Source: Candidatus Endomicrobiellum roisinitermitis
GTDB taxonomy: Bacteria; Elusimicrobiota; Endomicrobiia; Endomicrobiales; Endomicrobiaceae
Length of the DNA: 64,000 nucleotides
Assembly: GCA_031287855.1 (NCBI GenBank)
Contig: JAITSL010000034.1
Span: 1-64,000, forward strand
Reading direction: 5' to 3'
Made by a program: the position numbers and the translations under genes. The notes below the pieces were generated by a model that saw only the letters and a list, made by a program, of their open reading frames with translations, had not been told where the DNA came from and did no database searches. The stretch's first letter is position 1, and each line of letters opens with the position of its first letter. Below, in pieces: positions 204-56,566 of the stretch.

Positions 204-261
204 GTGTAAAAGTGCAAAGACATATTGGACTTTTGCAGTTACTTGACACAAGAACAGTTAG

Positions 262-464
262 TTTTGTCTAGTTTAGACCCTTATCTACGTTACTAGAGCA
301 ATCGCAAGTAAACATTTAAACAAATTAGCAAACTAGCAAAATGAAAAGACAAGAAAGACATAAATGAATTTTGCTTCAGACAGAGCTAATTTGAAATATT
401 AAATGTTTATAGCTCATAAGCTGCTCTTTGAGGTAACGGAGATAAGGTTTTAAACTTGATCAAC
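262..464 (+). repeat. Dispersed palindromic (MITE-like) element, copy 1
   Basis: Shares TACTAGAGCAATCGCAAGTAAACATTTAAACAAATTAGCAAACT and ATTTTGCTTCA...GCTAATTTGAAATATTAAATGTTTA...CTCTTTGAGGTAAC with copies at 11163 and 36037. Confidence 0.85.
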
Positions 465-11162: not shown

Positions 11163-11365
11163 GTTGGTCTAGTTTATAACCTTACCTACGTTACTAGAGC
11201 AATCGCAAGTAAACATTTAAACAAATTAGCAAACTTGCAAAATGATAAGACAACAAAGACATAAATGAATTTTGCTTCACACAATGCTAATTTGAAATAT
11301 TAAATGTTTAGTGCTTATAAGCCACTCTTTGAGGTAACTCCGATAAGAGTCTAAACTAGACCAAC
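11163..11365 (+). repeat. Dispersed palindromic (MITE-like) element, copy 2
   Basis: 14 bp terminal inverted repeats GTTGGTCTAGTTTA...TAAACTAGACCAAC; interior matches copies 1 and 3. Confidence 0.9.
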
Positions 11366-36036: not shown

Positions 36037-36237
36037 GTTGGTCTAGTTTATAATCTTATCTCCGTTACTAGAGCAATCGCACATAAACATTTAATCAAAT
36101 TAGCAAACTAGCAAAATGGTAAGACAAATAAAGACTTATATGTATTTTGCTTCAAACAATGCTAATTTGAAATATTAAATGTTTATTGCTCATAAGCCGC
36201 TCTTTGAGGTAACTCCGATAAGATTATAAACTAGACC
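36037..36237 (+). repeat. Dispersed palindromic (MITE-like) element, copy 3
   Basis: GTTGGTCTAGTTTATAATCTTATC...GATAAGATTATAAACTAGACC; interior matches copies 1 and 2. Confidence 0.9.
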
Positions 36238-36307
36238 CCTTTACTTGCTTTGACTGCTATGGAAACTCTAAATCTGTAGACAAAACAAAAAATATTGTAT
36301 ACAATTC

Positions 36308-39076
36308 TTGAACATGAAAAGGTTAAAAGTAATGAAATTTATTATTTTGCTTTTTTGTACTTTTTCTTATTGTTATGCAGATGTGAATTTCATAACTCAA
36401 AGTGATGCAAGCGATAATTCTAAGTGGACTCAAATAACAAACTCCAACCCAGGTGTTTTTTTTGGAAATTTCGACATTTCTTCACTACAATCACTTAACG
36501 ATGATGTTACTATCCGTTCAGACCAAAGTATTAAAAGGAGCTTAAACGCTTCTAACAACAATAAGTTTTTTAATTTTGATACTGGGCAAAGCTATGTAAC
36601 AATAAATGGTATTGCTTTGCAAAACGGCAAACATATGCTTTCAGTTGATAATAATGGTGGTGGAGCAATATATATAAATTCTGCTAATTTTAATTTGCAA
36701 GGAGTAGCGTTTTTTGAACAAAACACTTCCAGTGCTTGTGGTGGTGCAGTTTATGCTGCAGGAAATGTTTGGTTTTCTAATCCTACAGAAACAATAGCAT
36801 TTGTTTCTAATACAGCTGCATTTAATGGTGGAGCTGTATGTGTTGTTGGCAGTGTTACATTTAATGGTGGAGCTTATTTAATAGACAATAAAATTTCTGG
36901 GCAAGCTCGTGATGGTGGTGCTATTTATTCAAGTGGAACTGTTGCATTTAAGTCAGCTTTTGCTCCTGTTGAACTTACAAGTAACACTGCCTCAGGGTCT
37001 GGTGGTGCTATTTTTGCTTTAAATAACGTAGAGTTTAGTAGTAATGTTACAATCTCTTACAATAAGTCAGATGGCAATGGTGGAGCTATTTGTTCTAGTG
37101 CGGGGTATGTATCTTTTAAATCTTATGTTACTGCATCAGGCAATGAGACTACATCCTCTCGAGGTGGAGCAATATTTTCAAAAGGTATAACAATAAATGA
37201 TGGTGCCTCTTTTACCAACAACAAATCTTCTCAAGAAGGTGGAGCAATTTATGTGTACGATAGTACGTTTTCTTACATAGGGGCTGTTAATAGTGATATT
37301 TTGTTTAGTGGTAATACTATGGCTATAAGAAATGAAACTAAAAGGAACGATATTTATATGGGAGGACATTCTGTTGCTGCCTCTTTAAACACTTTAACTT
37401 TGGATGTAAGAGACTTGCGCAATATAACTTTAAATGGTGGTATAAGATGTTCTGATGTTGGTAACGATGTCATCAATAAGATAGGGAATGGGAGCCTTAA
37501 CCTTAACGGTGATTTTATTTTAACAACTTTTAACATGTTAGATGGTAGTCTAAACTTTGGTGAAGGTTCAGGTTTTAAAGGTAATAGTGTTTCTTTTTCA
37601 TCATCTAGTACTATTAATTTAGGAAGAAAGAAGGATTATGTAATAGAAGTGTCTACTTTACAGTCTAAAGCTTTATTTTATTATGACTTAGATTTGCAAG
37701 ACAATAATGTAGATAAGTTTGTTATTGTAAATTTTGCTGATTTAAATGATACCAGAGTTAAGATAAGTTTTGTTGGCATAAATAAATCGACTGTAACGTA
37801 TAATATTGTTTCCTCTTATCAAAATTCTCAAGGTAATATTTTAGTAGATAATACTAATGCTCAGGGTAATGTGATGTCCAGGGTTAATTCTTATATAACT
37901 TATGATACTAATAATCCTAGTTCTTGGAAATCTGTTGACCTTAACGTTTATGTTAATGAGTTAAATGATATTGACACTTTAGCAAATAATGAAAGGCAGG
38001 TTGCTCTTTGCCTAGATGAAAATTATGGTAAAGCTAAAAATGATTTGTTCTACATTGCAGATTTAATAGATAAAATGGAAAGAGTTCAAGACAAAAAAGA
38101 TGCTTTACTTAATTTGTCAGGATATATTTATGCAAACGCTATAGTGTTGCCTGCTATTAATACATATAAAAATAATATTTTGTCTAGGTTAGATAGAAGT
38201 TATTTCCCTAATAACGATAGTTTTTATAAAAGAAATGTTTGGGTGCAAGGGTGTAATGTTCAAAATAATTTTGAAGGTATGTTAAACTCTCCCGGGGATT
38301 TTAATATTTTGACTAATGGTGTACAAGTAGGTTTTGATACTTTAAGAGAAGATACTAGAATTTTTGGTATAACTTTAGGCTATAGTGACATAAAATCAAA
38401 ACAAAACGGTGATAAAGTTGATATTAAGGGATACAATTTTGGTGGTTACTGGTCTGGATTTTTTGAAAACAATTTTGAAGTTAGAGCTTTTATTGTTGGT
38501 GCAAGGCAAGGTTATTTGGCTTCTAGAAATATAGATTATTTAAATAGAAATACTAATGCAGACTTTGAGGGATATAGTCTTAACTCTTCAGTAGAAGTTG
38601 CTTATAATTATTATGCTAGTGATAATTTTTGTATAAAACCGTTTGTTGGTATGGATTATTCTTATGTTACCAGAAATGAATTTTTTGAATCTGGCGCAGG
38701 AGACGCAAGTTTGATTGTTTTAGAAGGTTCTTATAGCAGGGCAAACTCTTCTTTAGGTATTAGAATAAATAATGGTTTAAATAGTAGTGTTAAATGGTAT
38801 GCTTTACTTCAAACTGATTTATTGTTTTATGGTAAAGAAGGGGAATTTAGTAGCTCATTTAAAAATGGCATACAAAATATGACTATTAAGGGTATAGAAA
38901 ACGATGTAGCAAATGCTATTGTTGGTGCTGGCATTTTATATGATATTTCAAAAAATTTTGGTGTTTATTTAAATTTAAACGGTCAGTTTTCTAAAAATCA
39001 AAACGGCTATTATGGCAATATTGGTTTTAGTTATAAGTTTACAACTCAACCAGTCAACTTTTATCAACGTGCCTAA
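36308..39076 (+). CDS. Autotransporter with Pmp-like (GGAI) passenger repeats
   Basis: Signal peptide; many GGAIY/GGAVY/GGAIF repeats with NNxS spacing; C-terminal autotransporter beta-domain. Confidence 0.85.
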   Translation: MNMKRLKVMKFIILLFCTFSYCYADVNFITQSDASDNSKWTQITNSNPGVFFGNFDISSLQSLNDDVTIRSDQSIKRSLNASNNNKFFNFDTGQSYVTINGIALQNGKHMLSVDNNGGGAIYINSANFNLQGVAFFEQNTSSACGGAVYAAGNVWFSNPTETIAFVSNTAAFNGGAVCVVGSVTFNGGAYLIDNKISGQARDGGAIYSSGTVAFKSAFAPVELTSNTASGSGGAIFALNNVEFSSNVTISYNKSDGNGGAICSSAGYVSFKSYVTASGNETTSSRGGAIFSKGITINDGASFTNNKSSQEGGAIYVYDSTFSYIGAVNSDILFSGNTMAIRNETKRNDIYMGGHSVAASLNTLTLDVRDLRNITLNGGIRCSDVGNDVINKIGNGSLNLNGDFILTTFNMLDGSLNFGEGSGFKGNSVSFSSSSTINLGRKKDYVIEVSTLQSKALFYYDLDLQDNNVDKFVIVNFADLNDTRVKISFVGINKSTVTYNIVSSYQNSQGNILVDNTNAQGNVMSRVNSYITYDTNNPSSWKSVDLNVYVNELNDIDTLANNERQVALCLDENYGKAKNDLFYIADLIDKMERVQDKKDALLNLSGYIYANAIVLPAINTYKNNILSRLDRSYFPNNDSFYKRNVWVQGCNVQNNFEGMLNSPGDFNILTNGVQVGFDTLREDTRIFGITLGYSDIKSKQNGDKVDIKGYNFGGYWSGFFENNFEVRAFIVGARQGYLASRNIDYLNRNTNADFEGYSLNSSVEVAYNYYASDNFCIKPFVGMDYSYVTRNEFFESGAGDASLIVLEGSYSRANSSLGIRINNGLNSSVKWYALLQTDLLFYGKEGEFSSSFKNGIQNMTIKGIENDVANAIVGAGILYDISKNFGVYLNLNGQFSKNQNGYYGNIGFSYKFTTQPVNFYQRA

Positions 39077-55998: not shown

Positions 55999-56087
55999 GG
56001 TTGGTCCAGTTTAGAATCTTGTCGGAGTTACCTTAGTGGATCACTCTAGTAACGTAGATGTAGATAAGGTTCTAAGCTAGATCAGAC
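55999..56087 (-). repeat. Inverted, internally deleted copy of the dispersed palindromic element (copy 4)
   Basis: GGTTGGTCCAGTTTAGAATCTTGTCGGAGTTACC...CTCTAGTAACGTAG...ATAAGGTTCTAAGCTAGATCA: the two ends of the long copies in reverse orientation with the middle missing. Confidence 0.85.
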
Positions 56088-56167
56088 TAAATTTATATAC
56101 AACTCTTCTTGATACAATATTCTAAAAATGTATTATAATTATAGTAAAAGTGCTTTAGGAGATATTT

Positions 56168-56566
56168 ATGAACAAGTTAAGTTTGAGAATATCTTATGCT
56201 GACACTGACCAAATGGGTATGGTATATTATGCAAACTATTTAAGATATTTTGAAAGGGGCAGAACAGAACTCCTTAGAGAAATTGGCATTAATTATAAAG
56301 GACTAGAAGAGAAAGGGTTTTATCTTCCAGTATTAACTGCAGAATGCAAATATGTTTCTCCAGCAAAATATGATGATGTAATTATTGTTGAAACAAGAAT
56401 ACATGAGGTAACAGCAGCAAGTATTACATGTTATTATGAAGTTAAGTTATATGAAAAGCTTTTAGTTATAGGTAAAACTAAACATGCTTTTGTAAATAAA
56501 GATTTAAAGCCTGTAAGGATTCCAAAAGATATTAAAGAAATATTGGAAGAACATCTTGGATATTAA
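56168..56566 (+). CDS. Acyl-CoA thioesterase, YbgC/FadM (4HBT) family
   Basis: YADTDQMGMVYYANYLRYFERGRTELLREIG. Confidence 0.92.
   Translation: MNKLSLRISYADTDQMGMVYYANYLRYFERGRTELLREIGINYKGLEEKGFYLPVLTAECKYVSPAKYDDVIIVETRIHEVTAASITCYYEVKLYEKLLVIGKTKHAFVNKDLKPVRIPKDIKEILEEHLGY

Follow-up and report, generated by a model that had tools for sequence, protein, structure and literature searches.

A probable new MITE-like palindromic family of Endomicrobium-type bacteria, and the recombination that may remodel its dispersed copies

Palindromic copies between genes of the window

The window, that is, the whole 64-kb stretch of DNA analysed here, belongs to a 1.26-Mb draft genome in 57 contigs (G000) of an Endomicrobium-type bacterium, whose GroEL shares 94% identity with the Candidatus Endomicrobiellum siamense protein and 90–91% with its counterparts in other Endomicrobiia. 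Four copies of a palindromic element, three long and one short, sit between its genes (Table 1). All three long copies that the first-pass annotation had reported are real, the first of them starting at 263, and they are intergenic and free of ORFs as it had stated, with a longest stop-free stretch in the window copies of at most 37 codons; the fourth, deleted copy, which folds as a 92-nt hairpin, had been overlooked. The long copies are 89–91% identical to copy 2. The termini that they were said to have in common fit less well: those of copy 1 have diverged (TTTTGTCTAG / CTTGATCAAC), and the right end of copy 3 reads ...CTAGACCCC, with mismatches in its final bases. The autotransporter gene adjoining copy 3 encodes Chlamydia-PMP-like repeats and matches Pfam PF03797 and PF02415.

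The palindromic core is flanked by terminal inverted repeats of 17–30 nt. Aligned to its own reverse complement it scores 60, compared to a maximum of 22 among shuffled sequences. As DNA, copy 2 folds into a single hairpin of −30.8 kcal/mol (shuffles, −14.1 ± 3.1; z = −5.5); as RNA, the z score is −6.2, and none of the shuffles folds equally well. These values bear out the original description of a near-palindrome that is able to form one hairpin.

Table 1. Copies of the element in the window and related sequences in other contigs
Feature	Position	Strand	Context or remark
Copy 1, palindromic core	263..464	+	upstream of thrS-like gene
Copy 1, left arm	206..262	+	outer end GTAAAAGTGCAAAGACATATTGGAC matches IS481/IS3-type IS end (match 206-230)
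Copy 2, palindromic core, 203 nt	11163..11365	+	between dprA-like gene and tRNA-Lys/tRNA-Glu
Copy 2, left terminal inverted repeat	11163..11192	+	helix 1 of fold and covariation analysis
Copy 2, right terminal inverted repeat	11336..11365	-	helix 1 of fold and covariation analysis
Copy 3, core	36037..36237	+	upstream of autotransporter gene 36308-39076
Copy 4, centre deleted, 92 nt	56000..56091	-	both terminal repeats present; upstream of gene at 56168
Inner 166-nt palindromic family	L042:410-575, also L291, L282, L320		ends TCTGTCTAAAAACCTTA
IS481/IS3-type fragments, Endomicrobiia	L276, L339, L342, L346		terminus GTAAAAGTTCAAACACATATTrGACTTT, ~25-29 nt

Anatomy, distribution and a candidate partner

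The ends of the unit were defined by alignment outward from the core. The full unit is approximately 280 nt long and consists of a 61-nt left arm, the imperfect palindrome of approximately 203 nt, and a right arm of approximately 14 nt. The left arm starts with (T)GTAAAAGTTCAAACACATATTrGACTTT, and its terminus, (T)GTAAAAGTTCAAACACATATTGGAC, lies at a constant 61 nt from where the core ends in about 10 copies, with unrelated flanks beyond it. The right arm is short and ends near AATATCTGCTGCAT; with both arms included, the two outer ends of the unit are unlike each other. An alternative outer end, ATACCAT, was rejected, as it occurs in few copies, several of which lie inside similar repeated flanking sequence. 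The long form (approximately 365 nt) carries a second, independent palindromic family inside its loop, as a 166-nt insert that occupies a constant loop position in about 12 copies of G000. This inner family is also found alone, without the outer one, in G008 (21 matches), G012, and other genomes. By inspection, short copies ending in AGACAGACCCC appear to be long forms that have undergone deletion. Copies also form head-to-tail arrays with linkers of 17–92 nt; inspected in the same way, linkers of 18 and 25 nt read as truncated pieces of the right arm and the left arm, and those of 47–92 nt have different or composite origins. The palindromic core described by the first-pass annotation is confirmed, and what it missed is the 61-nt arm with the left terminus, the nested element of other copies, and the arrays. 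On contig C29, a long copy is split within the inner element by an IS110-type transposase pseudogene (L155:776–2007; Pfam Transposase_20, E = 1.4e-11).

A search of the source genome returned 59 match pieces, which correspond to approximately 42 copies once merged, mostly 92–378 nt in length. Among the 42 Endomicrobium-type (genus) genomes searched, four carry the outer family (G000, G003, G007, and G013), and the other genomes of the family contain at most one short match each. The terminal pattern GTCTAGTTTAGANTCTTA occurs 58, 46, 27, and 75 times in these four genomes, respectively, and no more than twice in any other genome, with reversed-pattern controls near zero. Plasmid and viral sequence collections yielded no match to the element, and no description of the family was found in the papers on Endomicrobia that were searched. 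At L162, L172, and L192, copies adjoin remnants of a repeated coding family (with peptides such as SLNVYAVRV) that resemble decayed surface-protein genes. The compared genomes are almost all drafts, and contig ends frequently fall within the element; several contigs terminate inside copies, as expected of repeats, and, since the copies are 10–15% divergent, wholesale misassembly is unlikely, though possible.

IS fragments of G013 start with the 25-nt left terminus too, as does a short remnant in G018; the reversed control pattern gave 0 matches. Reading frames of the G013 fragments end in an rve integrase domain (Pfam rve_3, 1.9e-14) and match the NCBIfam models for IS481 (3e-14) and IS3 (2.6e-13), neither of which reaches the full-protein cut-off. 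The IS481/IS3-type element starts with GTAAAAGTTCAAACACATATTAGAC; its similarity to the unit stops just past the left terminus, and the right ends differ. Type II MITEs have similarity to their partner IS that is limited to the terminus (PMC10969869). The IS481/IS3-type copies seen were truncated or broken; no intact autonomous partner was found, and none with that end in G000. Given the mismatched right ends and the missing intact transposase, an IS481/IS3-type transposase is a candidate, and only a candidate, for moving the unit in trans. Among the matches listed, no pair of core repeats surrounded a transposase-sized gap. Loop insertions on two contigs were considered as the autonomous partner and rejected: on C54 an rve remnant lies beside the loop, on C29 the insertion is the IS110-type pseudogene, and the common ends were seen in neither.

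Empty sites and orthologous copies

At C52:11832–12194, the G000 sequence is longer by 407 nt, with ATGGT...ACCAT as the boundaries and AAA to either side. The site is empty in G007 and G013, in which TTCTAAA/TTA(G/A)TACTC reads through, and in G018, whose empty sequence is slightly diverged; in G008, an inner-type element occupies the same spot. This 407-nt insertion, which is without the arm-B terminus, is the only one with a clear 3-bp AAA direct repeat. At the remaining sites the ends are ragged or secondarily changed, and further insertions and deletions obscure the empty state. The copy 1 locus is filled in G000 and G003 and empty in G013 and G007, so that the comparison proposed in the first-pass annotation did find orthologous empty sites, both here and on C52. 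Its MITE/REP-like reading holds for the MITE part: the elements are shorter than 500 bp, multicopy (approximately 42), intergenic, bounded by terminal inverted repeats, and devoid of ORFs and coding capacity, and they have orthologous empty sites as well as a terminus in common with an IS. The REP part is unsupported, because the unit is several times REP length; REP/REPIN are defined by RAYT-linked palindromes of 20–40 nt, compared to approximately 200–280 nt here.

Of 19 same-site comparisons between species, 10 show a flipped interior, with flanks that are mostly 90–97% identical. Copy 2 has the same orientation in G003, and in G013 its insertion point is occupied by a long form in reverse (it is absent from G018 and G008, and an IS110-like remnant lies in the G007 interval); copy 3 has the same orientation in G003, is a reversed long form in G007, and is absent from G013, G008, and G018. 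The form also switches, for example, from long in G000 to short in G007 at the same point. Interior identity is 0.870 for orthologous pairs versus 0.846–0.851 for other pairs. Three unflipped single copies common to G000 and G003 are 0.92–0.95 identical, mostly at rank 1, and the interiors of flipped orthologs rank anywhere among the copies in similarity. That interiors are mostly no closer to their ortholog than to other copies suggests ectopic gene conversion.

The flips could instead come from inversion in place through the element's own inverted repeats, by recombination or replication template switching, with no input from other copies and possibly with a phase-variation effect. About half of the shared sites differ in orientation, inverted repeats of 17–30 nt with a strong hairpin are suitable substrates, and within a copy, the left and right repeats resemble each other more than chance predicts (identity over the outer ~20 nt of 0.870 versus 0.842 ± 0.007 for re-paired copies, with 1 in 5000 as high). 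We nevertheless consider this explanation unlikely: in most cases the interiors of flipped orthologs resemble each other no more than those of unrelated copies do, and the short or nested long form changes along with the orientation, for which inversion alone is insufficient. A phase-variable promoter at 36037 was rejected as well, since the gene strand has a single promoter-like pair (36277–36305; a number no higher than chance predicts), which falls outside the element and is conserved even where relatives lack the element.

Repeated independent insertion into hotspot points, in random orientation, would replace the conversion of an old insertion altogether. It agrees with the inner-type element that G008 has at the C52 site and with interiors at flipped sites that resemble random copies. 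Site-linked retention of the outermost 17 nt through flips is not significant (p = 0.13), so that, by these ends, conversion is not separable from reinsertion. However, insertion points agree closely at many of the sites that 2–3 species have in common, the unflipped copies of G000 and G003 are true orthologs, and no strong target motif was seen, which together make reinsertion improbable.

A structured RNA with dispersed copies, or a hairpin that selection maintains for regulation at the RNA level, is a far weaker alternative, and we regard it as very unlikely. The hairpin is highly stable as RNA, 97% of cells are paired over 40 copies, and covariation exceeds that of all shuffles; yet two-sided changes lie almost wholly in the outer terminal repeat: of the five pairs that show them, four are located there. 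In the stem beyond it, two-sided change occurs at 1 of 32 pairs, and deep pairs are disrupted more often than they are restored by a compensating change. The earlier claim that the arms change together is accordingly right for the outer ~20 nt and fails for the deeper stem. The RNAalifold covariation term is −0.02 kcal/mol, Rfam at the gathering threshold matched tmRNA and tRNAs in the 64-kb window and nothing at the element copies, and the orientation relative to adjacent genes is arbitrary and differs between species, all of which argue against the structured RNA that had been suggested. Given two-sided change in the outer repeat and excess left/right identity within copies, an explanation at the DNA level is enough. 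An integron-type attC or other site-specific recombination array, which the head-to-tail imperfect palindromes with short linkers bring to mind, has a negligible chance of being correct, as no cassettes lie in the linkers, the short linkers read as fragments of the arms of the unit itself, single copies are scattered among housekeeping genes, and the ends are without the exact attC core RYYYAAC/GTTRRRY.

Proposed history, related elements and significance

Taken together, these results make it likely that the elements form a new, lineage-restricted, non-autonomous MITE-like family in which recombination between dispersed copies remodels the interiors. In this proposed history, a transposase of the IS481/IS3 type, as deduced from the common terminus, would have moved the unit in trans, and resident copies would then have been remodelled by recombination among dispersed copies via the inverted repeats; the tendency of the arms of a single copy to match would be an outcome of such recombination. 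Because the repeats are inverted, the interior of a donor may enter either way, which would leave a given site with different orientations, and with the short or the long form, from one species to another. The head-to-tail arrays would arise from unequal exchange and the short derivatives from hairpin-stimulated deletion, and the second palindromic family probably landed in the loop once and was then copied along.

MITE-like elements as a kind are already known; this family is new, and its dynamics in place are unusually vivid. The Correia elements of Neisseria are imperfect palindromic MITEs with long and short forms. The present family is likewise palindromic and MITE-like, with both forms, but it differs in termini and size, and its long form is the nesting of another family. 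Prokaryotic MITEs, including QMITE2 of Coxiella and Chunjie of Geobacter, have been reviewed (PMC10969869), and it is by such descriptions that we set the present family apart from the named ones. Like QMITE2 and Chunjie, it is shorter than 500 bp, AT-rich, and intergenic, has terminal inverted repeats, a stable stem-loop, and no ORF, and is present in tens of copies with truncated derivatives. Unlike them, it has an imperfect palindrome that spans the whole core, an element nested in the loop, changes of orientation and form at individual sites, and head-to-tail arrays. QMITE2 was invaded by IS1111 (PMC10969869), which the IS110-type remnant in the C29 copy recalls. Rickettsia palindromic elements are palindromic as well, measure approximately 150 bp, and occur in intracellular bacteria with reduced genomes, but they carry an ORF and are often inserted in frame into genes (PMC10969869); identity with them was ruled out, as the copies described here are intergenic and have no ORF.

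Whether the elements are active recombination islands, with interiors flipping and swapping between loci in living populations, is doubtful; if they are, they would keep a reduced endosymbiont genome in flux at many of its intergenic regions. Approximately 12 aligned sites over four species allow a direct reading of MITE insertion, nesting, conversion, flipping, and deletion. The family also illustrates how covariation between the arms of repeat hairpins can stem from DNA recombination, without necessarily implying a functional RNA. Mobile elements are commonly expected to be lost from the reduced genomes of endosymbionts of flagellates; here, a palindromic family of such elements has expanded in one small species group.
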